64,000 nucleotides of DNA from Rhodopseudomonas sp. P2A-2r (GTDB lineage: Bacteria > Pseudomonadota > Alphaproteobacteria > Rhizobiales > Xanthobacteraceae). Under the pieces are notes generated by a model. The model was not told the origin of the DNA. It saw only the letters and a program-made list of their open reading frames with translations, and did no database searches. Shown here in pieces: positions 37,916 through 53,072 of the stretch. The stretch covers positions 3,690,001 to 3,754,000 of the forward strand of contig NZ_CP110389.1 of NCBI RefSeq assembly GCF_026015985.1, given 5' to 3'. Both the position numbers and the translations under genes were made by a program. Every line of letters starts with the position of its first letter. Position 1 is the stretch's first letter.

Positions 37916-38217
37916 CAGTCCACTTTCGGGCCGGCTTTGCTGTCCGGCGTCACGTCGACCGACATGGCCCGTCCAGTCAATTTCGGCGCAGCGCGACAGT
38001 CCTTCATGCACGGCTCCTTTTTCCAGAATGATCTCTCCGCGGTATCTCGATCGTCCTCGTAGAAGGCCGCGGCATTCGGCATCTTGATCGATGAGAAAGT
38101 GTTCCGGTTGAGCTCGAAATTCTCGTCCTTGATAATGTCATTCATGTTGAGGACATAGGCGGTCAAGGCGTTGATGCAGATCAAGGCCGCCTCGTTCCTG
38201 CCGGACAACACTTGCAT
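37915..38217 (-). pseudogene. C-terminal remnant of a second c-type cytochrome
   Basis: 100 codons that read as the end of a class I cytochrome c: INALTAYVLNMNDIIKDENF, then a FSSIKMPN segment and a tail with PCMKDC, resembling sulfite/thiosulfate-pathway cytochromes (SoxD/SorB kind). No CxxCH is left: the N-terminal haem part is missing. The gene meets the promoter region of the YeeE genes at 38217, where a deletion probably removed the front half. Confidence 0.5.
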
Positions 38218-38243: not shown

Positions 38244-39023
38244 ATGCCGTCACTTTTTGACAAAGCGTGGTCGCCATACGTCGCAGGCATCGTGATTGGT
38301 CTGCTGCAGATCCCGGCCTTTCTGATGATCGAGACGGCACTGGGGGCGTCGTCATCCTACGTCACGGTTGGCGACGCGATCGCAAGCTGGTTCGATCCGT
38401 CATTGCTCAAGATCGACTACGTCAGCCGGCATCTGGCGATCAATCCCAAGAACCTCTGGCAGGTGGCGCTGGTCATCGGCGTTGCGATTGGCGCGTTCGT
38501 CTCGATGAAAATTTCCGGCGCGCGGCGACAGCCCATCTCTCCAATCTGGGCACGCGCGCTCGGCTCTTCATCATGTACATTGCGCTATGCCGTCGCGTTC
38601 GGCGCGGGATTTCTGATGCTGTTCGGCGCGCGCATCGCCGATGGCTGCACCAGCGGCCACGGCCTGTCCGGCATGGCGCAGCACTCAGTCGGCTCTACCG
38701 TCGCGGTTGCCGCCATGTTCGCCGGCGGCATCGTCACGGCTTCGCTCCTGCTTCGTCGAGATCTGACTTGGGAGATCAATCATGTCCAGTTCTGTCGGTT
38801 TTGCCATCCTCACCGGCGTCGCCATGGGAATCGTATTCGGTTTTGCGCTGGAGAAATCGCGCGTGTTCGAACCCGGCATGATCGTCGGCCAGATGCAGTT
38901 GCGCAACTTCATCATGCTCAAGGTCTTTCTGACGGCGGTGGCCACCGGGGCGGTCGTTCTCGCGGTGCTCAATGGCTTGGGCTACGTCAAACTGCAGCCG
39001 AAGGCGACCCTTTATGCGGCTGA
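38244..39023 (+). CDS. YeeE/YedE-family sulfur transporter, part 1 (reading frame runs on)
   Basis: Start ATG 38244 with AGGAG upstream. The first ~178 residues form a YeeE/YedE half with several membrane helices and the family motif GARIADGCTSGHGLSG around residue 133-148, whose Cys is thought to carry thiosulfate or persulfide. From about 38770 the frame enters the next gene and gives an Arg/His-rich tail with no family likeness; the true stop probably lies just before 38782 and was lost through a one-base indel. Pairs with the second YeeE gene. Confidence 0.72.
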   Translation: MPSLFDKAWSPYVAGIVIGLLQIPAFLMIETALGASSSYVTVGDAIASWFDPSLLKIDYVSRHLAINPKNLWQVALVIGVAIGAFVSMKISGARRQPISPIWARALGSSSCTLRYAVAFGAGFLMLFGARIADGCTSGHGLSGMAQHSVGSTVAVAAMFAGGIVTASLLLRRDLTWEINHVQFCRFCHPHRRRHGNRIRFCAGEIARVRTRHDRRPDAVAQLHHAQGLSDGGGHRGGRSRGAQWLGLRQTAAEGDPLCG

Positions 39024-39402
39024 CGTCGTAGGCGGGCTGTTGCTGGGGGCCGGCATCGCGCTTGCGGGTGCCTGCCCTGGAACGACGCTAGCCCAGATCG
39101 GCGTCGGGTACCGCGACGCCATCTTCACACTCGTGGGAGGACTGTCCGGAGCCGTGGCATTTTCCTACGCACAGCCCTGGCTCGACAAAGCCCTGATCGG
39201 CACTGGCCCGAAACTGATCTTCACCGACATGGTCGGCATTCCCTATTGGCAGGGGGCCATCGGCTTGGCCCTCGTGATCGTCGTCGTTCTGGCGCTAATG
39301 GAACGGGTCAGGTCTTGGCGCAAGGATCTCGGTTCAGACGCCGATGGTGATGCCGCGCATATTTACCACCCGACTAAGCAGCGTGTGGCGCCTGCCGAAT
39401 GA
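38782..39402 (+). CDS. YeeE/YedE-family sulfur transporter, part 2
   Basis: 206 residues, about five membrane helices. The conserved Cys motif is GAGIALAGACPGTTLAQIG (about residue 95). Two-gene YeeE/YedE systems of this kind move thiosulfate-like sulfur across the inner membrane. It overlaps in sequence with the run-on of part 1, in a different frame. Next to decayed sulfur-type cytochromes and upstream of the sulfide oxidation genes. Confidence 0.86.
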   Translation: MSSSVGFAILTGVAMGIVFGFALEKSRVFEPGMIVGQMQLRNFIMLKVFLTAVATGAVVLAVLNGLGYVKLQPKATLYAADVVGGLLLGAGIALAGACPGTTLAQIGVGYRDAIFTLVGGLSGAVAFSYAQPWLDKALIGTGPKLIFTDMVGIPYWQGAIGLALVIVVVLALMERVRSWRKDLGSDADGDAAHIYHPTKQRVAPAE

Positions 39403-40397: not shown

Positions 40398-40742
40398 TCA
40401 TTGATTTGGGTCAACCGCATTGACCGAAAAAAGCCGCGGCGACGGAAGAATTTTCATCAGGGTCCTGATGAGCTGCTCCACGCGGGAGTCCTTGATGCGG
40501 TACCAGCGCTTTTGCTTTTCCCTTCGGCACGAAACGAGACCGGCATCACGCATCCGTCCAAGATGCTGAGACAGAGCCGCTCGGCTCAAACCGGCGGCAT
40601 CGGCAAGAAGACCGAGGCTGCACTCGCCCTGTTCGATGAGCTTTAACAGAATGAGAAGCCGCCGCCTGTTGCCGACTTCGCGGAGAACAGCGGCGATCTC
40701 CTTCGCTTCAAATTCGCTGAACCCTGACGAAATGAACGTCAT
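40398..40742 (-). CDS. ArsR-family transcriptional regulator
   Basis: 114 residues. The winged helix includes RRRLLILLKLIEQGECSLG and the recognition helix SRAALSQHLGRMRDAGLV (about residues 52-70). Cys is found at GEC and SCRRE, but not in the SqrR pattern seen in the two later ArsR genes, so another signal is likely. It follows the RND pump gene by 14 bases on the same strand; it may regulate the pump operon from its end. Confidence 0.86.
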   Translation of the reverse strand: MTFISSGFSEFEAKEIAAVLREVGNRRRLLILLKLIEQGECSLGLLADAAGLSRAALSQHLGRMRDAGLVSCRREKQKRWYRIKDSRVEQLIRTLMKILPSPRLFSVNAVDPNQ

Positions 40743-40756
40743 CGCGAACCCACATC

Positions 40757-43700
40757 TCAACCAACGGATTTCCCGCCCCTCAGCGCGATGTAGATCGCCG
40801 GGATGACGAGAACGGTGAGCAGCGTCGACGACGCCAGCCCGAACAATAGCGAAATCGCCAGCCCCTGGAAGATCGGATCGACGAGAATCGTCGCTGCGCC
40901 GATCATCGCCGCCAGGGCGGTGAGAAGGATAGGCTTGAAGCGGACCGCGCCCGCTTCCAGCACGACCTCGCGCAACGGCCTGCCATCTCCGCCGCTGTGG
41001 CGAATGAAATCGACAAGTAGAATCGAATTGCGGACGATGATGCCGGCCAGCGCGATGAACCCGATCATCGAAGTCGCAGTGAACGCTGCCCCAAGAAGCC
41101 AGTGACCGATGAGAATTCCGATCAATGTCAGAGGGATCGGCGTGAGAATCACTAGCGGCAACCGGAAGCTGCGGAATTGCGCCACCACCAGCACGTAGAT
41201 TCCCAGGATGGCGGCCCCGAAGGCAGCGCCCATGTCCCGGAAAGTCACGTAAGTGATTTCCCATTCGCCGTCCCACAGGATGGAGGGCCGCGACTCGTCC
41301 GCCGGCTGTCCATGTAGGCTGATCACCGGCTTTGGTAGCGCGCCCCAGTCATGAGCGTCGACGCGGCTGGCAACCTCGAGCATACCGTAGAGCGGCGCCT
41401 CGAAGCGGCCTGCCAGTTCGGCCATCACCATGTCGGCAAATCGTCCGTCGCGGCGGAAGATGGTCGGTGATCCCTCCTCCGTGGTCGCTTTCACGACCTG
41501 GCCGAGTTCAACGACCGTCTTGCTTCCCGGCAATGTGTTGGCGGGCACCGGCGTTGAAGCCAGCGCCTCGGTCCACGCCAAGTCGCGCTTCGGCAGCCGC
41601 ACGGCGATCTCGATCGGATTGCGGTCTTCGCCACGGTGCGAATAGCCCACCGATACGCCGCCGAACAGAGTCTGGATGGTGTCGTAGACGTCACGCTGCT
41701 CGACCCCGAAAAATTCAAGCCGATCCTGGTCAATGGACAGCCGCAGCCGCGGTCGCTTCTCGCCGATCAGATCGTCGATATCGACAATGAACGGCACCTC
41801 GGCGAAGATCTTCTTCATTTCGGCCGTGACGGCCCGGCGCGTCGCCGAATCCGGCCCGTAGATTTCGGCCAGAAGAGTTGCAAGCACGGGCGGTCCCGGC
41901 GGCACCTCGACCACCTTGACGCTGGTACCTGCCGGCGCGTTGACCGCCTTCAGGCGCTGACGCAGATCCAGCGCGATGTCGTGGCTCGCCCGCTTGCGGT
42001 CGGAGCGCGCCGCGAGGTTGACCTGCAATTCGCCGAGTTCGGGCCGCTCCCGTAGGTAATAGTGGCGAACGAGGCCGTTGAAATTGAACGGCGCCGGCGT
42101 GCCGGCATAGGATTGTACCGAGGTGATTTCGGGTAGAGCGCGCGCGATGAGGCCCGCTGCAAACAGCGTCCGCTCGGTATCCTCAAGGCTGGCGCCTTCC
42201 GGCAGATCGACCACGACCGCGATCTCGGACTTGTTGTCGAACGGCAGTAACTTGACCGTCACGGATTTTGTCGCAAACAGCGTCATCGACAACAAGGTGG
42301 CAATGCCGACGCCGATCAGGAAGATCCAGGAGTTGCGCTTGCTGCGGACGATCGGAGCAGCGATGCGCCGGTAGATCCTCCCCAGCGCGCCTTCGTCATG
42401 CGCGACGTGCGCCGCAACCGCGGCATCGCCCTTCGGCGCCAGCCGCAGCATCAGCCACGGCGCTACGACCATGGCGACGAAGAACGAGAACAGCATCGCC
42501 GCGGAGGCATTGGCCGGGATCGGCGCCATGTACGGGCCCATCAGCCCCGACACGAACAGCATGGGCAACAGGGCGGCAACGACCGTCAGGGTCGCCACGA
42601 CCGTCGGGTTACCGACCTCCGCCACAGCCTCGATCGTTGCCTGCAGACGCGGGCGCCCGTCGCGCATAGCCCAATGGCGGGCAATGTTCTCGACCACCAC
42701 GATGGCATCGTCGACGAGAATACCGATCGAGAAGATCAAGGCAAACAGGCTGACGCGATTGATCGTGTAGCCCATCAGATTGGCGGCAAACAGCGTCAGC
42801 AGGATTGTCGTCGGAATCACCACGAGGGTGACCAGCGCCTCGCGCCAGCCGATCGCGATGGCGATCAGAATGACGATCGAGATCGTCGCCAGCCCGAGGT
42901 GAAACAGGAGTTCGTTCGCCTTTTCGTTGGCGGTCTCGCCATAGTCGCGGGTCACTGTGACCTGGACGTCATCGGGGATCAGGCGAGACTTCAGCCCCTC
43001 CAGTCGCTGCGCAATGGCCTCGGAAACAACCACCGCATTGGCGCCTGCCCGCTTGGCAAGCGCCAGACTCACGGCGGGCACACGCTGCCAGCTGCCCTTG
43101 TTATCGCGCGCATCGTTCCAGACGCGGTGCTCAGCCGCATTCGGCCCGATCACCACCGCGGCGACGTCCTTGACGTAGACCGGACGTCCGTCGCGTGTCG
43201 AGATCAGCAGCAAGCCGATATCGGGAATGCCGGCCAGAGTCTGGCCAGCCGACACGGTGCGCACGATCCCGGCATCCCGGACCTGTCCCGCCATGAACGA
43301 GCGGTTGGCGTCCTTTACCTTGGCAACGAGTTGCTGGAGTGTCACCCCGAACAGCGACAGTTTTTCCGGATCCGGCTCGACCCTGATCTGCTGGGCGCCG
43401 CCGCCGGCGATGTAGGTCAGGCCGATGCTGTCGACCTTCATCAGTTCGGAGCGAAGCTTGTCGGCGAGTTCGTAGAGATCCTTGTCCGACCAGCGGTCGG
43501 CAGCCTCGGGCTTCGGTGAAAGCGTGAGGACGGTCACAGCGACATCGTTGATGCCGCGACCGACGATCAGGGGCTCCGGAATACCGACGGGGATCTTGTC
43601 GAGATTGGCGCGGATCTTGTCGTGCACGCGAAGGATCGCGTCTTCCGACTTTGTACCGACCAGAAAACGCGCAGTGACCAGGACACGGTCGTCTTCGGTC

Positions 43701-43963
43701 TGGCTGTAGACATGCTCCACGCCATCGATGCCCTTGACGATCGCCTCGAGCGGCTTTGTGACCAGTTCGACGGCATCCGGTCCATGCAGGCCGTCGGCAT
43801 TGACCCGAATATCGACCATCGGGACGCTGATCTGGGGCTCTTCCTCGCGCGGAATGACCACGACGGCCATAACGCCGACGATCAGTGCGGCGAGCAGAAA
43901 CAGCGGCGTAAGCGGCGAATTGATCGTCGCCCTTGTTAGTCGCCCGGACAGGCCAAGATTCAC
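40757..43963 (-). CDS. RND-family efflux transporter, inner-membrane pump
   Basis: 1068 residues with twelve membrane helices in the usual two blocks and two large periplasmic loops. The proton relay is recognisable in SIGILVDDAIVVVENIA (helix 4, Asp pair near 410), typical of the HAE-like branch, not the heavy-metal CzcA branch. GTG start at 43963 overlaps the adaptor stop (GTGA). It exports a drug-like or metabolic compound together with the adaptor; no outer-membrane channel gene is adjacent. Confidence 0.9.
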   Translation of the reverse strand: MNLGLSGRLTRATINSPLTPLFLLAALIVGVMAVVVIPREEEPQISVPMVDIRVNADGLHGPDAVELVTKPLEAIVKGIDGVEHVYSQTEDDRVLVTARFLVGTKSEDAILRVHDKIRANLDKIPVGIPEPLIVGRGINDVAVTVLTLSPKPEAADRWSDKDLYELADKLRSELMKVDSIGLTYIAGGGAQQIRVEPDPEKLSLFGVTLQQLVAKVKDANRSFMAGQVRDAGIVRTVSAGQTLAGIPDIGLLLISTRDGRPVYVKDVAAVVIGPNAAEHRVWNDARDNKGSWQRVPAVSLALAKRAGANAVVVSEAIAQRLEGLKSRLIPDDVQVTVTRDYGETANEKANELLFHLGLATISIVILIAIAIGWREALVTLVVIPTTILLTLFAANLMGYTINRVSLFALIFSIGILVDDAIVVVENIARHWAMRDGRPRLQATIEAVAEVGNPTVVATLTVVAALLPMLFVSGLMGPYMAPIPANASAAMLFSFFVAMVVAPWLMLRLAPKGDAAVAAHVAHDEGALGRIYRRIAAPIVRSKRNSWIFLIGVGIATLLSMTLFATKSVTVKLLPFDNKSEIAVVVDLPEGASLEDTERTLFAAGLIARALPEITSVQSYAGTPAPFNFNGLVRHYYLRERPELGELQVNLAARSDRKRASHDIALDLRQRLKAVNAPAGTSVKVVEVPPGPPVLATLLAEIYGPDSATRRAVTAEMKKIFAEVPFIVDIDDLIGEKRPRLRLSIDQDRLEFFGVEQRDVYDTIQTLFGGVSVGYSHRGEDRNPIEIAVRLPKRDLAWTEALASTPVPANTLPGSKTVVELGQVVKATTEEGSPTIFRRDGRFADMVMAELAGRFEAPLYGMLEVASRVDAHDWGALPKPVISLHGQPADESRPSILWDGEWEITYVTFRDMGAAFGAAILGIYVLVVAQFRSFRLPLVILTPIPLTLIGILIGHWLLGAAFTATSMIGFIALAGIIVRNSILLVDFIRHSGGDGRPLREVVLEAGAVRFKPILLTALAAMIGAATILVDPIFQGLAISLLFGLASSTLLTVLVIPAIYIALRGGKSVG

Positions 43964-44948
43964 GGTTGCACCAGTACATCGCCGGCGCGAATGCCGGACA
44001 GGATTTCAAGGCCGTTCGAAAAATCGGACGTCGGCAGATCGCGGCCGCGCTGCACAGGCGCGCTGATGGGGCGGTCCGCCTGCCGCACCAGGACATAGTC
44101 GATGCCGAAGCGCGTCGTGACATAGGTGGACGGAATTACGAAGGCCGTCCGCTCGCCCCCGCAATCCACACCCGCAATCGGTCGCCGACAAAATACTCAC
44201 CGAGACCATCTACCGTCGCGTCAGCGACCACGCGTCCGTCCTCGATCTGGGGGTAGACAAGTTCGATCGTACCCGACTTCGGCGCATGGTCGCCGAACTC
44301 GGCTCCGTCAACACGGATTTTGTCACCGGCCTTCAGACCACGTGCGTGGCGCTCGGGAACGCGTAAACGCAACTTGAAATTCTGTTGCGCGATCATGGCC
44401 ACCGCGTCGCCGGGCAGGACCACCGAGCCCACGGCGACCTGCTTCTTCAAGACGCGGCCGTCGGCGGGGGCCAGGACCTGCCCTTCGTTGAATTGCTGCT
44501 GGACGACGGCCCGCTCTGCCGTTCGCGCACGCAGGCCGTTTTCGGCGACGTTGAGAGCCGTCCTCGCCTCATCCAGCTTGACACGTGGAAGCGTACCGCG
44601 CTCCACGAGGCCTTCGGTTCGCGAATAGTCGGTCTGCGCCTGGGTTGACTGCGCCTGCAGCGCGTCGATCTGCGCATCGAGCGACTTCATCTGCAGCGCC
44701 AGCTTTTCATCGCCAATTACCGCGATCACCTGACCACGCGTTACCGGATCGCCCTCCCGCACATTGAGCTGAACAATCGTGCCGCCAATTCGCCCGCGCG
44801 CTGGAACGACGCTCACACTCTCGACAGTAGCGAAGACAGCCTTCTCATCGGAGACAGCGCGAGTGGCTACCGTGAGCGTCTCCGCGCCCGCGATCGGGAC
44901 ACCGAGGATCGTCGCGGCCACAGCCGCAGTCCTTATCAACAGCCACAT
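43960..44948 (-). CDS. RND efflux periplasmic adaptor (single-base frameshift)
   Basis: About 329 residues. Start ATG 44948 (MWLLIRTAAVA) opens a signal peptide; then a lipoyl/barrel-sandwich part (GGTIVQLNVREGDPVTRGQ), a coiled hairpin rich in Gln (DAQIDALQAQ), and the second half ADGRVLKKQVAVGS. In the C5 run at 44156-44160 one base is missing: restoring it joins RVWIAG to GERTAFVIPSTYV and on to ILSGIRAGDVLVQP. The span of 989 bases is one short of a multiple of three. It bridges the RND pump to the outer membrane. Confidence 0.86.
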
Positions 44949-45055
44949 TGGGATACTCGCAATCCTGTATAAATGCTTTAAAGGACGGTGCATCTGCAGA
45001 TGCACGGTTGCAGGCTTGGAAACGCAGTCATTGACCTGCCTCAACACACGACGGC

Positions 45056-45406
45056 CTACGTCTGCGTAGACTTTCGATGCTGCGGCTTTGCTTTTAGCGC
45101 CTTTTGCGACGGGCAATATGCGCGATACAGCGTCGTTAGAATCTCGCGCGCGGGATCGCTCGCGATGGAATAGTGGATCGACTGAGCATCGCGCCGAGCC
45201 GAAACCAGCCCATCCTTGCGAAGGAGCGCGAGGTGCTGGGACACAGTCGAATCGCGGAGGCCGAGGAACCCGGCAAGGTCTCCGACCGAGCGCTCGCCAT
45301 CGATCAGCTGACAAATGATCAGCAGCCGGTGTCGATTGCCCAAGGCCTTGAGGAGGTCGACCGCGCCATCCGCGGCAGCTTCCATCAATTCGATTTCCAT
45401 ATTCAT
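45056..45406 (-). CDS. SqrR/BigR-like ArsR-family persulfide-type repressor, copy 1
   Basis: 116 residues from ATG 45406 (MNMEIE). Winged helix with LGLRDSTVSQHLALLRKDG. Cys32 (LLIICQL) and Cys98 (YRAYC) are 66 residues apart, the same spacing as Cys41/Cys107 of Rhodobacter SqrR, which form a polysulfide bridge that frees the DNA. The start lies 7 bases from a -10 box, so the mRNA is probably leaderless. It faces the sulfide:quinone oxidoreductase gene divergently, as in Rhodobacter. The C-terminus ends in a Lys/Gln-rich tail. Confidence 0.88.
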   Translation of the reverse strand: MNMEIELMEAAADGAVDLLKALGNRHRLLIICQLIDGERSVGDLAGFLGLRDSTVSQHLALLRKDGLVSARRDAQSIHYSIASDPAREILTTLYRAYCPSQKALKAKPQHRKSTQT

Positions 45407-45442
45407 GGTTGCGTATATACGATGTTTCGAATATACAGTCAA
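45407..45442 (-). promoter_or_regulatory. promoter/operator of SqrR-like copy 1, leaderless start
   Basis: On the minus strand: TTGACT (complement of 45437-45442), 17-base spacer, TATATA (45414-45419), then 7 bases to the ATG at 45406. The spacer and -10 contain an inverted repeat GTATAT...ATATAC that overlaps both boxes, as expected of an autorepressor. The site also lies about 75 bases upstream of the divergent sqr gene. A nearly identical element lies before the second SqrR-like gene. Confidence 0.72.
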
Positions 45443-45513
45443 CCATTGCAGCCCAAGAAGCTGGGATCAACCGGCTCGGCCGCACGCAGAAAGCGCAGCA
45501 AACGGAGGCGACC

Positions 45514-46797
45514 ATGGATATCGTTGTTATTGGAGCAGGTCTTAGCGGGACGCTGATGGCCTATGAAGTTTTGCCGAACCTGCGGCCGGGCGATCGGCTA
45601 ACCGTCATTTCCCAGGGGCCGGTCTATCACTTCGTCCCCTCGAACCCCTGGGTGGCGATCGGCTGGCGCAAGCGTAGCGACATCGAAATCGACCTCGTCG
45701 ACATCATGAAGCGCAAAGGCATCCGACTGTTGACGCAGGGCGCCCAGCGCGTGCATCCGGTTGAAAACCGGGTCGATCTCGCAGACGGCACGTCGGTGAG
45801 CTACGACTATCTCATCGTGGCCACCGGGCCACAGCTTGCGTTCGACGAGATCCCGGGTCTTGGCCCGGACGGCCACACGCAATCGATCTGCCACGTCGAT
45901 CACGCGGCCGACGCCAACGCCGCCTTTGAACTGCTGGCCGCAAACCCGGGACCCGTGGTGATCGGCGCCGTCCAGGGCGCGTCGTGCTTCGGTCCTGCCT
46001 ACGAGTTTCTGTTCATTCTGGAAACTGAGCTGCGCCGGAGGAAGCTGCGGGATCGCGTGCCCATGACCTTCGTCACCTCGGAACCCTATATCGGACACCT
46101 CGGACTGGACGGCGTCGGCGACACCAAGGGCTTGCTCGAGAGCGAAATGCGAGAAAAGCATATCAAGTGGATCACCAGTGCCCGCGTGACCTCCGTTGAA
46201 CAGGGACGTATGGCCGTGGAAGAACTCGCGGATGACGGATCGGTCCGCAAGACCCACGATCTGCCGTTCTCATATTCAATGATGCTTCCGGCATTCCGGG
46301 GTGTGGATGCCGTCCGCGGCATCGACAAGCTCACCAATCCCCGCGGTTTTGTCATCGTCGACAAGCACCAGCGTAATCCGGAATTTCCCAATGTGTTTGC
46401 GGTGGGCGTGTGCGTGGCGATTGCTCCGACGGGGGCAACTCCCGTCCCTGTCGGCGTCCCTAAAACAGGCTTCATGATCGAGTCAATGGTGACCGCGACA
46501 GCCATGAATATCGGGGCTTTGCTAAGGGGCCAGACGCCGACGGCACAGCCGACGTGGAATGCGATCTGTCTGGCGGATTTCGGCGACTCAGGCGTCGCAT
46601 TCCTGGCGCAGCCGCAAATTCCACCCCGCAACGTCAACTGGTCTTCCAAAGGCGAATGGGTCCATCTTGCCAAGGTTGCGTTCGAGAAATACTTCCTCCG
46701 CAAAATTCGCCGCGGCGAAAGCGAACCGTTTTACGAACGGTTCCTGCTCGACAAGCTGAACATCGCAAAGATCAAAGAGCTTAAGACAGGAACATGA
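45514..46797 (+). CDS. sqr: type I sulfide:quinone oxidoreductase
   Basis: 427 residues, the length of Rhodobacter Sqr, from ATG 45514 with GGAGG upstream. FAD-binding GxGxxG (VVIGAGLSG) at the N-terminus, a second dinucleotide-like loop ATGPQ, and a C-terminal amphipathic end. Cys126 (SICHVD), Cys158 (GASCFG) and Cys352 (NAICLA) match by position the three redox Cys of the type I enzyme (127/159/353 in R. capsulatus). It oxidises sulfide to persulfide/sulfur and reduces quinone. Start of the operon with trxC, DUF2892, DUF302 and AhpD-like genes. Confidence 0.9.
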   Translation: MDIVVIGAGLSGTLMAYEVLPNLRPGDRLTVISQGPVYHFVPSNPWVAIGWRKRSDIEIDLVDIMKRKGIRLLTQGAQRVHPVENRVDLADGTSVSYDYLIVATGPQLAFDEIPGLGPDGHTQSICHVDHAADANAAFELLAANPGPVVIGAVQGASCFGPAYEFLFILETELRRRKLRDRVPMTFVTSEPYIGHLGLDGVGDTKGLLESEMREKHIKWITSARVTSVEQGRMAVEELADDGSVRKTHDLPFSYSMMLPAFRGVDAVRGIDKLTNPRGFVIVDKHQRNPEFPNVFAVGVCVAIAPTGATPVPVGVPKTGFMIESMVTATAMNIGALLRGQTPTAQPTWNAICLADFGDSGVAFLAQPQIPPRNVNWSSKGEWVHLAKVAFEKYFLRKIRRGESEPFYERFLLDKLNIAKIKELKTGT

Positions 46798-47237
46798 GCA
46801 CGACCATGCAGATCGTCTGCGGACATTGCGGGAAGATCAACCGGCTCCCCACCGATCGGACCGCGACCGCAGCGCGATGCGGATCCTGTCATCAGCCCAT
46901 CTTTGATGGGCACCCCGTCGAGGTCGACGAGGCGGACTTCAATCGCCACCTGGCGCAGAGCAGCGTTCCCCTCCTTGTCGATGTATGGGCTCCCTGGTGC
47001 GGTCCATGTCGCTCCATGGCGCCGATGTTCGAGCGCGCCGCCAGGGAACTTGAACCGAATGTCCGCCTGCTCAAGCTGAATTCCGACACCGCGCCGTCGG
47101 TGTCCGCGCGTCTGGGGATCAGCGGCATACCGACACTGCTGCTGATGCACGGCGGCCGCGAAATTGCGCGGACATCGGGAGCAATGGATACCCGGACCAT
47201 CGTTAGCTGGACACAGGCCGGGCTAAGACAGGCCTGA
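46794..47237 (+). CDS. trxC: thioredoxin TrxC (thioredoxin 2)
   Basis: 147 residues, overlapping the sqr stop by ATGA. An N-terminal zinc-binding domain with two CxxC pairs (CGHCGK and CGSCHQ) precedes a thioredoxin fold with active site WAPWCGPC near residue 67 and cis-Pro in ISGIPTLLL. TrxC reduces disulfides and persulfides. Its tight coupling to sqr suggests that it clears persulfide made by Sqr, handing electrons from NADPH through thioredoxin reductase. Confidence 0.91.
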   Translation: MSTTMQIVCGHCGKINRLPTDRTATAARCGSCHQPIFDGHPVEVDEADFNRHLAQSSVPLLVDVWAPWCGPCRSMAPMFERAARELEPNVRLLKLNSDTAPSVSARLGISGIPTLLLMHGGREIARTSGAMDTRTIVSWTQAGLRQA

Positions 47238-47268
47238 TCATTCTCAAACCCAAGCAAAGGGACACGTC

Positions 47269-47472
47269 ATGAATATCGATAAAGCAGTGCTCACATTCGC
47301 CGGATTTGTTGTGTTGCTCGGCCTCACCCTCGGCTGGCTGGTCAACCCGTACTGGTTTCTGCTCACCGCTTTCGCGGGATTGAACATGGTTCAGGCGGGA
47401 ATCACCGGCTTCTGTCCGGCCGCGATCATCTTCAAGAAGCTTGGCGTCCGCAGCGGCTGCGCCTTCTCCTAG
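47269..47472 (+). CDS. DUF2892 inner-membrane protein (YgaP membrane-domain type)
   Basis: 67 residues, two membrane helices (LTFAGFVVLLGLTLGW and a second around residues 31-50), and a CPAA motif followed by KKLGVRSGCAF. This is the membrane half of YgaP, where it is joined to a rhodanese; here it stands alone, so a separate sulfur carrier is likely. Common in sulfide-responsive operons of alphaproteobacteria. Confidence 0.86.
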   Translation: MNIDKAVLTFAGFVVLLGLTLGWLVNPYWFLLTAFAGLNMVQAGITGFCPAAIIFKKLGVRSGCAFS

Positions 47473-47534
47473 CTATTGCGCTCGGCATTCAATCGCCGAC
47501 AGTACTGCGGCTCCCATGATTCAAAGGAAAACAC

Positions 47535-47924
47535 ATGACCTACCATTTCTCGAAGACGGTCAAGATGCCGTTTGAAGCTGCCGTTGTCGCCACAACGGAA
47601 GCCTTGAAGAAGCATGGTTTCGGTGTCCTGACGCAGATCGATGTCAAAGACACGCTGCAGAAGAAGATCGGCGTCGATTTTCGGCCATACCTCATTCTGG
47701 GCGCCTGCAATCCGAAGCTGGCCTATGAGGCGCTGACGCTCGAGGACAAGGTCGGCACGATGTTGCCCTGCAACGTCGTCGTCCAGCAGCGCGAGGCAAA
47801 TGCCGTGGAAATCTCGGCGGTCGATCCGGTGGCATCGATGGGCGCCATCGACAATCCGAAACTCGGCAGCGTCGCCGGTCAGGTCCGGGATCTGCTGCAG
47901 CAAGTCATTTCAGATATCGGGTGA
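47535..47924 (+). CDS. DUF302-family protein
   Basis: 129 residues. The DUF302 fold shows in VVATTEALKKHGFGVLTQID, GACNPKLAYEAL and PCNVVVQ. Function unknown; these proteins are repeatedly found in sulfur-oxidation and sqr loci. No signal peptide. Third small gene after sqr and trxC, with 62 bases to the DUF2892 gene. Confidence 0.86.
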   Translation: MTYHFSKTVKMPFEAAVVATTEALKKHGFGVLTQIDVKDTLQKKIGVDFRPYLILGACNPKLAYEALTLEDKVGTMLPCNVVVQQREANAVEISAVDPVASMGAIDNPKLGSVAGQVRDLLQQVISDIG

Positions 47925-48040
47925 GATTCAGGCTCATCAATTCACTACGGGGCGGAGTTCTCGAAGCACCGAGCTACGGTCCAATCTAATTCGGTATTGC
48001 GCTCGCGAGAACTTGCCACCTCACTCACAGGATTTATCAG

Positions 48041-48388
48041 ATGTATAAGAACTGGCCTGCCATGACAGGCGACCTTTCAATCGCACTGAAGGAGGTCCGC
48101 AGCGGTGCGCCGGACGTGATGAAGGGGTTTTCAGCGATCGCGCAGGCAGCGTTGAAAGCCAACGCTCTCGACACCAAAACCAAGGAGCTCATCGCGCTCG
48201 CGATCTCGGTCGCGACCCGTTGCGACGGCTGCATCGGCTTTCATGCTGAGGCAGCGGTGCGCCATGGCGCCAGCCGCGATGAGTTGATGGAAACGATGGG
48301 CATGGCGATCTACATGGGCGCCGGTCCCAGCGTCATGTACGCCGCGCAAGCGATCGAGGCATTCGACCAGTTTGCCGCCAAGACTTAG
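48041..48388 (+). CDS. AhpD-like CMD-family thiol protein
   Basis: 115 residues with the redox motif CDGCIGFHAEAAVRHG (CxxC-x3-H, about residues 66-73). A member of the small CMD/AhpD family that reduces peroxide or persulfide through its Cys pair. It closes the sqr operon; a hairpin follows at 48483-48513. Confidence 0.86.
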   Translation: MYKNWPAMTGDLSIALKEVRSGAPDVMKGFSAIAQAALKANALDTKTKELIALAISVATRCDGCIGFHAEAAVRHGASRDELMETMGMAIYMGAGPSVMYAAQAIEAFDQFAAKT

Positions 48389-48482
48389 CTCGCCAAGGAG
48401 TGGGTACCGGACCGTCGCCTCACACGAGGGAGGACGCCGGGCAGTCCCACTGGGGGCCGCCCAGGTGGTCCCATAAAGATGC

Positions 48483-48513
48483 CGAGCATCGACTTAGTCT
48501 AGATCGATGCTCG
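48483..48513. terminator. hairpin after the sqr operon
   Basis: CGAGCATCGA (48483-48492) pairs perfectly with TCGATGCTCG (48504-48513), loop of 11 with a CTAG-like centre. It is 95 bases after the AhpD-like stop and before the next gene, where an operon end is expected. No U tract follows. Confidence 0.4.
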
Positions 48514-48615
48514 CGAAATCCATCGGGGATCATCCCGTCTTCACAACGCACCGTCACTAGCCGGATATCACAAAACCAGGTTACTGTAGGTCAATCTTGG
48601 CCGGACAACGATCCT

Positions 48616-48849
48616 ATGACGAAGCAAGGAAAGGTCCTCCTGTTTCCACGCAAGCCTTCCATGAAATTGAAAGGCGAGCGCGAGGACGATCACCATCACC
48701 GGATGGTGGTAAATGTCATTGCTTTCGCATTCGTCTTTGTTTTTTTCATCGGAGCCTATTTTATCGTGGAAAGGCTTCTGAGCATTCCACAGCATCTCGA
48801 TTGCAATTTTTCAGTTCGTCGCCCCTGCAAGGCTGGCTTGGGTCAGTGA
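48616..48849 (+). CDS. small single-helix membrane protein, unknown
   Basis: 77 residues from ATG 48616. A basic start (MTKQGKVLLFPRKP), a His-rich bend DDHHHRM, one membrane helix (NVIAFAFVFVFFIGAYFIV) and a short end with two Cys (LDCNF, RRPCKAG). Small proteins of this pattern are frequent in Bradyrhizobium and relatives, function unknown. Located between the sqr operon and the second SqrR-like gene. Confidence 0.6.
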   Translation: MTKQGKVLLFPRKPSMKLKGEREDDHHHRMVVNVIAFAFVFVFFIGAYFIVERLLSIPQHLDCNFSVRRPCKAGLGQ

Positions 48850-49006
48850 CTATTCTGGCTTTGCCAAGTTGGGTTACTTCATCCGCCATCCTTTGACTTA
48901 GCGGACTCTTCTTTGCCGGGGGGACATCGGCCAATTCGTCACGAAAGGCGAAAGCTCTAAGCGTGCCGGGTAAGCCGCGGCGTCGTTCGCGCTTCGAATA
49001 CCAGAA

Positions 49007-49336
49007 TCACTTCTTACGAGCCGCCTTGGTCTTGGGTGGCATGCAATAAACGTTATAAAGCGTTGTCAACACCTCGCGCGCTGGCTCGCTCGCGATCGAA
49101 TAATAGATGGTTTGACCATCGCGGCGAGCCGCGACCAGACCGTCCTTGCGCAGCAACGCAAGGTGCTGGGACACTGTGGAGTCGCGAAGGTCTAGGAATG
49201 CAGCGAGGTCACCGACCGAGCGCTCTCCTTCAACCAGTTGACAGATGATCAGCAGTCGATGCCGGTTTGCCAGCGCCTTCAAAAGATCGACCGCGCTGTC
49301 GGCCGCGGCTTTCATAACTTCAACGGTGATATTCAT
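49007..49336 (-). CDS. SqrR/BigR-like ArsR-family persulfide-type repressor, copy 2
   Basis: 109 residues from ATG 49336 (MNITVE). It is a close paralog of the gene at 45056-45406, including the recognition helix DSTVSQHLALLRKDG and Cys32 and Cys98 at the same 66-residue spacing that marks SqrR-type sulfur switches. The C-terminus is a Lys-rich tail. It lies divergent to cydA, so a link between reactive sulfur and bd oxidase expression is suggested. Confidence 0.88.
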   Translation of the reverse strand: MNITVEVMKAAADSAVDLLKALANRHRLLIICQLVEGERSVGDLAAFLDLRDSTVSQHLALLRKDGLVAARRDGQTIYYSIASEPAREVLTTLYNVYCMPPKTKAARKK

Positions 49337-49372
49337 AATTGCGTATATACGGCTTATCGAATATGCGGTCAA
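49337..49372 (-). promoter_or_regulatory. promoter/operator of SqrR-like copy 2, leaderless start
   Basis: TTGACC (complement of 49367-49372), 17-base spacer, TATATA (49344-49349), 7 bases to ATG 49336. Over the 30 bases at 49341-49370 it matches 24 of those at 45411-45440, with the repeat GCATAT...ATATAC over both boxes. About 230 bases upstream of cydA on the other strand. Equal distances to the start in the two copies make an identical transcription start and leaderless mRNA likely. Confidence 0.72.
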
Positions 49373-49599
49373 TGGTCTCAAGGGCGCGTCCGCGGGTCCA
49401 TCGGAATCCGGAACTTTGACCAACCGGCGCACGGCGGGAATTTGAGCCTGATCAATCGGGTTCAGAAAAAAGGGCCATGATCTTCAAGAAACGGGGTGGT
49501 CGTGGCAGCCCGGCGTTTTTTCAGGCGAATGGCCGTAGCGGCGAAGTCGGTACGCGAGCCAATCGTCAGAATTTTTATACTCGACTGGAAACTTCTGAA

Positions 49600-51183
49600 A
49601 TGACGACTCCTCTGCTTGTGGAACTCTCGCGGGCCCAATTTGCGCTGACCGCCATGTATCACTTCTTGTTTGTGCCGCTGACGCTCGGGCTGTCGGTGCT
49701 CGTCGCGATGATGGAGACCGTCTTCGTCATGACGCGCCGGACGATTTGGCGAGACATGACGAAGTTCTGGGGTCTGCTGTTCGGCATCAACTTCGCCCTG
49801 GGTGTCGCCACCGGCATTACGATGGAGTTCGAGTTCGGCATGAACTGGGCTTTCTATTCGCACTATGTCGGCGACATCTTTGGTGCGCCGCTGGCAATCG
49901 AAGCTCTTATGGCGTTCTTTCTGGAGGCGACGTTCATCGGCCTGTTCTTCTTCGGATGGGACAAACTCTCGTCGCGCGCGCATCTCGCCGTCACCTGGCT
50001 GGTGGCGCTGGGTAGCAATCTCTCGGCGCTTTGGATCCTGATCGCCAACGGCTGGATGCAGAATCCGGTGGGCGCCGCTTTCAATCCCGACACCATGCGC
50101 ATGGAGGTCATCGACTTCGCGGCGGTCCTCTTCAACCCGACGGCGCAAGCGAAGTTCGTTCACACTGTGTCGGCTGGCTACGTCTGCGGCGCCGCCTTCG
50201 TGCTCGGCATTTCGGCTTTCTACCTTCTCCGCGGCCGTCACGTGCAGCTTGCCAAGAGGTCGTTCGTGATCGCGGCGGCGTTCGGCGTCGCAGCTTCCCT
50301 GTCGGTGATCGTGCTGGGTGACGAAAGCGGTTACACCCTGACCGATAACCAGAAGATGAAGCTCGCCGCGATGGAGGCGATGTGGCACACCGAGCCAGCG
50401 CCGGCGGCGATTACTGCATTCGGCATTCCAGATATGAAGACACGAACGACCGACTACGCCATCCAGGTCCCGTGGCTGATGGGCCTGATCGGGACCCGTT
50501 CGGTCGATCAGCAAATTCCGGGCATCTTCGAACTGGTTACAAAGACCGAGGGAAATATTCGCGAAGGCCTTGTCGCCTACGACGCCCTTGAGACGCTCAA
50601 AAAGAACCATGCGGACCCCGTCGCCCGCGCCATCTTCGAGAAGACCCGCGGCGACCTCGGTTATGCCCTGTTGTTGAAGCGCTACATCGCCGATCCAAGG
50701 CAGGCGACGACTGAGCAGATCAGCCAGGCAGCCTGGTCAACGGTGCCGAGCGTTCCGTCGCTGTTCTTCGCGTTCCGCTTCATGGTTCTGTTCAGCTTCG
50801 CGTTGCTGGCGGTGTTCGCGACTTCGCTCTGGTACACGATGCGGGAAGCAGCGGCGCCCTGCTGGTTGTTCCAGCTCGCGCTGTGCGCCATGCCGCTGCC
50901 TTGGCTCGCAGCAGAACTGGGCTGGTTCGTAGCCGAATTCGGTCGCCAGCCATGGATCATCGATGGGGTCCTGCCGACCTTTCTTGCGACATCGGAGCTC
51001 GGAATCTCCGACCTGTTGCTGACGATCGCCGGCTTCACGGCGGTCTACGGCGTGCTGGCGGTCATCGAGGTCAGGTTGATGTTGCAGGCGATCAAGAAGG
51101 GGCCCGATGCGATCACCGGCAATGCCAGCCCGCTCGGCGACTTTGGCGCGGTCACAAGCTTCGGCTTTCGGCCGGCCGAGTGA
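49600..51183 (+). CDS. cydA: cytochrome bd ubiquinol oxidase subunit I
   Basis: 527 residues from ATG 49600; a start 41 codons upstream would add a non-family leader. Haem ligand His21 (AMYHFLFVPLTLG), the long Q-loop after GYTLTDNQK, and the GWFVAEFGRQPW motif are present, so this is a true bd enzyme of the long Q-loop type, with a total length like E. coli CydA. It oxidises ubiquinol and reduces oxygen without pumping protons. bd oxidases tolerate sulfide, which fits the sqr neighbourhood. Confidence 0.94.
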   Translation: MTTPLLVELSRAQFALTAMYHFLFVPLTLGLSVLVAMMETVFVMTRRTIWRDMTKFWGLLFGINFALGVATGITMEFEFGMNWAFYSHYVGDIFGAPLAIEALMAFFLEATFIGLFFFGWDKLSSRAHLAVTWLVALGSNLSALWILIANGWMQNPVGAAFNPDTMRMEVIDFAAVLFNPTAQAKFVHTVSAGYVCGAAFVLGISAFYLLRGRHVQLAKRSFVIAAAFGVAASLSVIVLGDESGYTLTDNQKMKLAAMEAMWHTEPAPAAITAFGIPDMKTRTTDYAIQVPWLMGLIGTRSVDQQIPGIFELVTKTEGNIREGLVAYDALETLKKNHADPVARAIFEKTRGDLGYALLLKRYIADPRQATTEQISQAAWSTVPSVPSLFFAFRFMVLFSFALLAVFATSLWYTMREAAAPCWLFQLALCAMPLPWLAAELGWFVAEFGRQPWIIDGVLPTFLATSELGISDLLLTIAGFTAVYGVLAVIEVRLMLQAIKKGPDAITGNASPLGDFGAVTSFGFRPAE

Positions 51184-51213: not shown

Positions 51214-52367
51214 ATGATTGACACTCTCTTGGACTACACGACGCTGCGCCTGATCTGGTGGGTGTTGCTCGGCGTTATTCTGATCGGCTTCGCCGTCACC
51301 GATGGCTTCGACATGGGGGTCGGCGCGTTGCTGCCTTTCGTGGCCAAGACCGACATCGAGCGGCGCGTCGCCATCAACACCATCGGCCCGGTTTGGGAAG
51401 GCAACCAGGTCTGGTTCGTGCTCGGCGGTGGCGCGATCTTCGCGGCATGGCCAGCACTCTACGCGCTGAGTTTCTCCGGTTTCTACCTTGCCATGTTTCT
51501 GGTTCTGTTCGCGCTGATCCTGCGACCTGTCGCGTTCAAATACCGATCCAAGCGAGACAGCGTGGCGTGGCGCCGTAATTGGGACTGGGCGCTGTTCGTG
51601 GGGGCGCCGTCCCGGCGCTGATATTCGGCGTCGCCGTCGGCAATGCGCTGAAAGGCGTCCCGTTTCACTTCACTGACGATCTGCGCCCGATCTACGAAGG
51701 TACGCTGTTCGGGTTGCTGAATCCGCTCGGGCTGTACTGCGGTCTTGCCTCGCTCGCCATGCTGGTGATGCACGGCGCGGCATGGCTGGCCTTCAAGGCA
51801 GAGGGCAATGTCGCCGACCGGGCCGCCTCGACGGGACAGAAGGTAGCAATGATCACGGCAGTGCTGTTCGCCTTCGGCGGAGTTCTGATCTGGCTCGGGG
51901 CGTTCGGCGGATATCATGTGACCAGTGCGATTGCCTGGGACGGCCCCTCCAATCCGCTCGGCAAGACGGTGACACTGGATTCGGGGGCTTGGCTGAACAA
52001 CTTCCGGGCCACGCCATGGCTGGCCATCGTACCGTTTCTCGGGATCATTGCGCCACTGTTCGCTGCGATCGGTTTCCGCGCGCGGCGTTCGGGACTGACT
52101 TTGCTGGCTTCAAAACTGGGAATTGCCTGCATAATCTCGACCGTCGGCTTAGCGATGTTTCCCGTCATCCTCCCTTCCAGCACGCATCCCGGCGATTCAT
52201 TGACCGTGTTCGATGCTTCATCGAGCCAGACGACATTGCGCAACATGCTGATCGTGGTCGTGATCTTCCTGCCGATCATCCTCGCCTACACCGCCTGGGT
52301 ATACAAAGTGCTGTGGGGCAAGGTCAGCGCCACGACTGTCGAGAGCGCCGGCACGGCGGCCTACTGA
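51214..52367 (+). CDS. cydB: cytochrome bd ubiquinol oxidase subunit II (single-base frameshift)
   Basis: About 384 residues. The first frame begins [12 protein letters not shown] and contains [17 protein letters not shown]; at the G5 run 51600-51604 it is lost. One more G joins NWDWALFVG to [14 protein letters not shown] and leads to a normal end at 52367. The span of 1154 bases is one short of a multiple of three. It binds haem with CydA and forms the core of the oxidase. Start 30 bases after cydA. Confidence 0.9.
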
Positions 52368-52697: not shown

Positions 52698-53072
52698 ATG
52701 CTGATCGCCGTTGCCAGCCAGAATTTTCGCACCGTTACCGGCCATGCCGGCAAGAGCCGCCGCTTCCTGGTGTTCGACGCCGCTCCGGGCAGCGCGCCCC
52801 GCGAAATTGACCGGTTCGACCTGCCGAAAGAGCAGTCCATTCACGAATTCCGCGGAGATGGTCCTCACGCGCTCGATGCCGTCAAGGTCGTGATCGCAGG
52901 CAGCGCCGGCGCCGGCTTCATCAACCGCATGGCCGCGCGCGGCGTTCAGGCGGTCACTACCGCAGAGACCGACCCGACTATCGCCGTCGAGCGTTTCCTG
53001 GCTGGTACGCTTGCTCCGTCGGCACCCCACGAACATGGCGAAGAAGGCGGATGCGGTTGCAATTGCTCCTGA
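52698..53072 (+). CDS. NifX/NifB-type dinitrogenase cofactor-family protein
   Basis: 124 residues. The domain of dinitrogenase iron-molybdenum cofactor proteins is seen in GHAGKSRRFLVFD and VVIAGSAGAGFINRMAARGV. The C-terminal end is His- and Cys-rich (HEHGEEGGCGCNC), which could bind a metal or cluster. No nif genes are nearby. Proteins of this type occur beside redox and sulfur genes, with unknown roles. Downstream of cydX and convergent with the multihaem cytochrome gene. Confidence 0.84.
   Translation: MLIAVASQNFRTVTGHAGKSRRFLVFDAAPGSAPREIDRFDLPKEQSIHEFRGDGPHALDAVKVVIAGSAGAGFINRMAARGVQAVTTAETDPTIAVERFLAGTLAPSAPHEHGEEGGCGCNCS

Follow-up and report, generated by a model that had tools for sequence, protein, structure and literature searches.

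Can a repressor gene carry its operator across its own start codon, and can a second copy of such a gene bring a terminal oxidase under sulfide control? Both questions are raised by a 64,000-nucleotide stretch (the window) of the 6.74-Mb, single-contig genome of Rhodopseudomonas sp. P2A-2r (contig NZ_CP110389.1, positions 3,690,001 to 3,754,000), in which two divergent gene pairs lie 4 kb apart: arsR1(-)/sqr(+), with a gene for sulfide:quinone oxidoreductase, and arsR2(-)/cydA(+), with the gene for cytochrome bd subunit I (Table 1). Here, we describe the two ArsR-type regulators, their promoters and operators, and their conservation in relatives. The explanation that we consider probable is that arsR1 and arsR2 encode paralogous SqrR-like repressors with leaderless mRNAs and operator-embedded starts, and that persulfide would release the arsR/sqr units.

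Two repressors with predicted leaderless starts

ArsR1 and ArsR2 are 76% identical over 109 aligned columns, and both match Pfam HTH_5 (46.9 and 48.3 bits, cut-off 22) and the NF033788 profile (82.8 and 91.0 bits, cut-off 55). The best solved structures for ArsR1 by sequence are HlyU, YgaV, SqrR (13ct/6o8l), NolR and BigR (3pqj). Both proteins have C32 and C98, 66 residues apart as the initial annotation had pointed out, and the ArsR1 pair aligns to two cysteines of the SqrR chain and of YgaV. We take the SqrR counterparts to be those numbered C41 and C107. The pair is kept in 24 of 24 relatives with at least 62% identity and in all 30 pattern-sampled genes. Residues 50-68 (LRDSTVSQHLALLRKDGLV), which we take as the putative site of the recognition helix, are identical in ArsR1 and ArsR2, and from this identity we infer that the two proteins cross-bind. 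In a tree of 66 repressors, arsR1 groups with arsR2 in 32% of bootstrap trees, so that in-situ duplication and acquisition of arsR2 are both possible.

At both genes the order TTGACY, 17 nt, TATATA, 7 nt, ATG is exact. The match of 24 of 30 bases between 45411-45440 and 49341-49370, and the identical spacing of both boxes and the ATG, were reproduced exactly as first annotated. Counted in 30-base bins outward from the ATG, the paralogues match at 23, 11, 8, 6 and 9 positions (the 11 includes the -35 box), and similarity drops to background just past the -35 box. Because the 23 matches of the ATG-proximal bin stand against these lower counts upstream, and identity at coding third positions is limited to 49 of 98, the likeness of the promoters exceeds duplication drift.

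Relatives were taken from a protein-sampled set of 80 loci (L numbers) of named genomes, 25 of which have at least 62% identity and a placeable start; L021 (at a contig end, its spacing the same in the alignment-fixed analysis described below) and L068 were dropped with the start unresolved. A -10-like hexamer lies 7 nt before the ATG in 24 of the 25 (exception L029), the start codon having been picked among in-frame starts for promoter fit when 9 of 13 positions matched. When alignment to residue 1 sets the start instead, and the promoter plays no part in the choice, the same pattern appears in L011-L036. The hexamer is TATATA in 14 of the 24 relatives. Homologues below 62% are mixed, many at 50-61% (sphingomonads, Caulobacter, Pelagibius) keeping the promoter layout and others not. 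Among 24 distinct sequences (L029 included), at least 1 bit of information is found at 20 of 36 positions from -36 to -1, against none of 54 from -90 to -37. A Shine-Dalgarno (SD)-like word of at least 4 bases precedes 1 of 30 repressor genes (mainly protein-sampled) and 0 of 30 pattern-sampled ones, compared with 32 of 49 annotated neighbours on four plasmids.

The signature by which leaderless genes are recognized, a -10 box about 7 nt from the ATG without an SD sequence, is thus present at both repressor genes. On promoter conservation, the lack of an SD-like word and an operator resembling the published SqrR site (below), the leaderless starts that the initial annotation had predicted for both mRNAs are well supported. 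In the available part of a study of Bradyrhizobium japonicum, 192 transcription start sites map exactly at start codons, so that the leaderless class is common in a relative. As a separate observation, the Rhodobacter SqrR-like genes (L062 and L063, around 4001) have TAAAGT about 8 nt before the ATG and no SD-like word, and possibly are leaderless too, via a different promoter.

A proposed operator dyad over the start codon

Both sites read ATATTC-N7-CGTATATACG-N7-GAATAT, that is, ATTC-N8-GTAT abutting ATAC-N8-GAAT, two SqrR-like 16-mers. The similarity of the paralogues continues past the ATG, which the initial annotation had missed: in both genes the right arm of the dyad starts at the G of the ATG, spans codon 2 and takes in two bases of codon 3. 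The N8 spacing is exactly that of the published SqrR site, given as ATTC-N8-GAAT in the available text (PMC9774250). With up to 3 mismatches allowed, the operator pattern occurs in the whole 6.74-Mb genome at these two places only (four overlapping matches; 0 in the backward control). The opposite strand of the arsR1 element reads TTGCGT-17-TATACA toward sqr. A perfect 36-bp palindrome was considered and rejected, since only 22 of 36 positions (arsR1) or 24 of 36 (arsR2) are self-complementary; these are the arms and core, and the N7 spacers are not symmetric.

The 54 deduplicated genes used to count codons at the gene starts comprise the window pair, 24 relatives with 62% identity or more, 30 pattern-sampled genes and sphingomonads at 61%. 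Isoleucine at codon 3 is written ATA 27, ATT 5 and ATC 1 times (27/33 ATA), compared with 9, 34 and 243 times from codon 6 onward (9/286 ATA), with a P value of 7e-26 that is optimistic because the relatives' sequences share ancestry. Lysine at codon 2 is AAA in 40 genes and AAG in 6, against 58 and 183 elsewhere. The fraction of A/T-ending codons is 0.83, 0.94 and 0.72 at codons 2-4 and 0.32 and 0.42 at codons 5-6, over a baseline of 0.19; codon 13 reaches 0.51.

For bases 4-8 of the open reading frame (ORF), mirror symmetry with the left arm reaches 3.49 of 5 positions, against 2.41 with the same bases permuted; 50 of 53 loci lie above their permuted value, and in the window pair the symmetry is 5 of 5. 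The following five ORF bases have no arm symmetry (1.32 against 1.49 permuted). An earlier control with internal codons (1.09 of 5) was too lenient, these codons being G+C-rich, and the permutation control shrinks the effect. These data fit a DNA-level constraint that would reach into the gene; a preference of leaderless translation for A/U and the hydrophobic residue 3 account for part of the pattern. Operator, core promoter and start codon would then be merged in about 45 bp, which as part of the whole explanation we also judge probable.

By the proposed mechanism, the reduced repressor would bind as two adjacent dimers on ATTC-N8-GTAT and ATAC-N8-GAAT and cover the spacer, the -10 box and the start codon, so that both divergent promoters would be shut. 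A rise in sulfide would lead to persulfide bridges between C32 and C98, the dimers would leave the DNA, and RNA polymerase would initiate at the A of the AUG; the products upon release would be arsR (with hlyD-RND at arsR1) and sqr-trx.

Several points weigh against this explanation, in addition to the promoter-guided choice of starts and the shared ancestry given above. One half-site of each 16-mer (GTAT or ATAC) differs by one base from the published site. Of the 24 relatives, 15 keep TTGAC at its position, others having TTGC, TTGT or TTGAT, and L020 a TTGAC shifted by one. Relatives have a poorer right arm (GAAAAT), with a match at dyad column 3 in 4 of 53, and the sphingomonad group is without it (ATGAAAGCC). 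The A/T-rich codons 2-4 could serve leaderless translation instead, and the hydrophobic residue 3 likewise constrains the T at ORF base 8. In E. coli, primer extension gave ygaV a 28-nt leader, according to the available part of the source, so that leaderless starts are not universal in the wider family. ArsR1 and ArsR2 do not reach the cut-off of 155 of the BigR NCBIfam equivalog NF040642 (74.7 and 86.9 bits), and the repressors are therefore named SqrR-like, not BigR.

A further-reaching proposal holds that the start and first codons themselves form the outer arm of a double operator, that selection for DNA binding acts on codon choice (the rare ATA) in two or more alphaproteobacterial orders, and that in this strain the second copy extends the sulfide regulon to the terminal oxidase through cross-binding paralogues; taken together, we regard this as doubtful.

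Synteny in relatives and the copy beside cydA

When 391 family genomes were searched with the 39-mer, it matched at 85 places in 83 of them (backward control, 0); as the 39-mer fixes the ATG spacing, it is no independent test of that spacing. The 39-mer is absent from all 17 other same-genus genomes in the family sample, and the cluster was therefore probably acquired or widely lost. Two matches occur in only 2 of the 391 genomes, this one and G398, where both copies head hlyD-RND. An order-wide operator search (40 of 397 genomes, against 10 genomes in the backward control) was too noisy outside the family.

Genes for HlyD and an RND transporter lie downstream of arsR in 24 of the 26 loci L011-L036, with sqr adjoining in 15 of the 26 (partial in L023). 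In a 54-locus set (24 protein-sampled loci and 30 of the 85 pattern places), a divergent sqr lies within 500 bp in 39, some others having trx or CMD genes instead. The reverse -10 begins with TATA in 36 of the 39 loci with a divergent sqr, against 9 of the 15 without (P = 0.0095), L023 being counted, possibly wrongly, among the latter. The arrangement sqr/arsR-hlyD-RND is common in relatives, and arsR2 beside cydA is an extra copy, an addition to it. The common arrangement predicts a sulfide-inducible RND pump. The run itself (40757-44951) is conserved in Bradyrhizobium, Acidocella, Kaistia and Caulobacter, beside sqr in most and not in Kaistia, and suggests a sulfide-inducible efflux pump. 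Relatives of ArsR2 (61-66%) adjoin blh or MBL-hydrolase and yeeE genes in Chelatococcus, Nitratireductor and Paracoccus.

The initial annotation had proposed that the pair couples reactive sulfur to both sqr and cydA. Synteny supports its sqr half; its cydA half is plausible but circumstantial, with the weak -10 box, the lack of the operator at the other cydA loci scanned and the FixK/FNR-like boxes against it. Autoregulation of arsR2 is likely, and ArsR2 may possibly also tune cydA.

That ArsR2 regulates only itself, a FixK/FNR-type activator driving cydA from its own promoter near 49490 and the adjacency being accidental, is a plausible alternative that falls a little short of an even chance. 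A FixK/FNR-like box (TTGAGCCTGATCAA, scored against TTGAT-N4-ATCAA) lies between the operator and cydA, and the four closest cydA relatives (80-88%) have such boxes, matching at 9-10 of 10, starting at -66 to -70 and no arsR; the frequency of the reverse TATA with and without a divergent sqr also speaks for it. The window's box is imperfect (9 of 10) and lies about 90 bp further upstream than in these relatives, however, and shuffled windows give a mean of 1.17 FixK/FNR-type matches of such quality per window. Moreover, of the 26 other, more distant cydA entries, 20 have no box of at least 8 in 420 bp and 6 have it at another position. On the side facing cydA, TTGCGT is retained in full, and the possible misfiling of L023 touches the TATA comparison. 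A sigma-70 scan of 49300-49660 gave one promoter-like match, 49311-49339 (+), overlapping the arsR2 start.

We consider it plausible, though less likely than not, that the paralogues couple reactive sulfur to sqr and cydAB, with ArsR2 directly repressing cydA from the shared operator. Of the two operators in the genome, one lies between arsR2 and cydA. Among the 13 other genomes that carry both features, two, G244 (8.1 kb) and G329 (5.4 kb), have cydA less than 10 kb from the operator, by a hand tally with about 0.05 expected on our own estimate, a 10-kb limit set post hoc and the two features on different contigs in 7 of the 13. A Chelatococcus plasmid carries arsR-DUF2892-blh-arsR-yeeE-sulP and then MarR-cydDC-cydAB-cydX, its cydA 9.4 kb from arsR (a 66% relative), which stands among sulfur genes; the other three annotated plasmid neighbourhoods examined have no cyd gene within 6 kb. 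In G262 (L192, 2625-5983), a SqrR-type regulator of another subfamily, with cysteines 66 apart, lies between sqr and cydBA. In E. coli, cydAB read counts are elevated in a ygaV mutant, and repression of cytochrome bd by YgaV is reported (PMC11858517, PMC9774250), the available passages not stating whether it is direct; A. baumannii cydAB is sulfide-induced according to the part available of PMC7315123.

Against direct repression of cydA, the cydA-facing -10 is only TATGCG and the operator core lies about 265 bp from the cydA ATG, with the FixK/FNR-like box intervening. The operator was not found within 1.5 kb upstream of 34 distinct other cydA loci, from a scan of 43 entries (35 distinct, L055 left out with only 1 base upstream) that covers 32 of 69 other cydA places. 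The cydB gene is frame-broken in the assembly, its frames corresponding to residues 1-130 and 130-384 of an intact 384-aa relative (L181); the frame change may stem from an error of assembly or be genuine, and as assembled the oxidase operon is broken.

That the promoter likeness is merely residual from duplication, and the A/T-rich starts serve leaderless translation without any start-codon operator, seems improbable: the A/T enrichment does reach codon 4, past the dyad arm, and amino-acid constraint fixes some bases, but similarity has a sharp edge near -36 both between the paralogues and between relatives, 42 of 79 same-residue codons of arsR1 and arsR2 are identical, and the arm symmetry beats permutation and stops at ORF base 8.

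Known systems and other features of the window

SqrR, the persulfide-responsive sqr repressor of Rhodobacter capsulatus, is alike in fold, aligned cysteine pair, sqr linkage and ATTC-N8 spacing; unlike there, the second half-site here is GTAT, two sites abut around CGTATATACG, the predicted leaderless start lies inside the operator, and a second copy stands beside cydA. BigR, which represses blh (persulfide dioxygenase) in Xylella and Agrobacterium, is alike in fold and in the sequence relation to 3pqj, and presumably carries the same cysteine pair; ArsR1 and ArsR2 differ in falling below its equivalog cut-off. We take E. coli ygaV not to be adjacent to cydAB. Its product is alike as a SqrR homologue with reported cytochrome bd repression, and unlike in the 28-nt leader described in the available part of the source. 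Leaderless repressor genes are known in lambda cI, Tn1721 tetR and acuR of Rhodobacter sphaeroides (PMC3017554, in the part available). Of these, acuR is from an alphaproteobacterium and is likewise a leaderless repressor with its operator over the promoter, repressing its own operon; as the same passages describe it, AcuR is TetR-type and its repeat lies in the region 36 bp upstream of the ATG, whereas here the dyad contains the start codon.

Leaderless repressors, SqrR-type repressors and the cytochrome bd link in E. coli are thus already known separately. The initial annotation had called the arrangement not textbook; the sqr/arsR side is common in relatives and the link to cytochrome bd has a precedent in YgaV, as far as the available passages go. 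What is new in combination is a predicted leaderless SqrR-like divergon in several alphaproteobacterial groups, a start codon in a double operator with a codon signature, and the second copy at cydA. Literature searches by title and the opening of the abstract, with most subscription journals outside their scope, found no publication on a leaderless SqrR-type repressor or on this combination; unpublished status is not claimed.

If the proposed explanation is true, translation start, transcription start and repressor binding would be one 45-bp element, with no untranslated step from operator release to repressor protein. The consensus TTGAC-N17-TATATA-CGCAAST-ATG would locate the sulfide regulon in relatives, fix start codons and predict the sulfide-inducible HlyD-RND pump, and the cydA copy would be a test case for respiration rewired by copying a repressor with its operator.

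Table 1. Positions of the repressor genes, their control elements and the divergent genes in the window.
Feature	Position	Strand	Remarks
arsR1, SqrR-like repressor, 116 aa, C32/C98	45056..45406	-	hlyD and RND downstream on same strand; divergent from sqr
arsR1/sqr operator dyad	45399..45434	.	ATATTC-N7-CGTATATACG-N7-GAATAT; 22 arm and core positions symmetric
arsR1 promoter TTGACT-17-TATATA	45414..45442	-	-35 at 45437-45442, -10 at 45414-45419; 7 nt to ATG (45406-45404); predicted leaderless
sqr-facing overlapping divergent promoter TTGCGT-17-TATACA	45409..45437	+	sequence
sqr, sulfide:quinone oxidoreductase	45514..46797	+	PDB 3sz0, E 1.6e-144; own GGAGG at 45504-45508
Thioredoxin, adjoins sqr as in many relatives	46794..47237	+	
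arsR2, SqrR-like repressor, 109 aa, C32/C98	49007..49336	-	divergent from cydA
arsR2/cydA operator dyad	49329..49364	.	identical 22 symmetric arm and core positions as at arsR1
arsR2 promoter TTGACC-17-TATATA	49344..49372	-	-35 at 49367-49372, -10 at 49344-49349; 7 nt to ATG (49334-49336); predicted leaderless
cydA-facing half TTGCGT-17-TATGCG, poor -10	49339..49367	+	sequence
FixK/FNR-like box TTGAGCCTGATCAA, 9/10	49442..49455	+	starts 158 nt upstream of cydA ATG
cydA, cytochrome bd subunit I	49600..51183	+	
cydB, two overlapping ORFs in different frames	51214-52367		frame change near 51600 in G run

Other features of the window include a third ArsR-type regulator (40398-40694), downstream of the RND gene and without the operator element. 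A small protein encoded after cydB (52698-53072), which we take to be NifX/NafY-like, has no NCBIfam match; its relatives are encoded upstream of operator-bearing arsR genes in Rhodopseudomonas rhenobacensis (L018) and in G022 (L191). A putative transporter, YeeE/YedE-like by its sequence, is present as two overlapping ORFs in different frames (38244-39402), a split that would fit the pattern of a homopolymer error in the assembly. About 60 bp upstream of this YeeE-like ORF, at 38171-38184, lies a perfect FixK/FNR-type box, TTGATGCAGATCAA.

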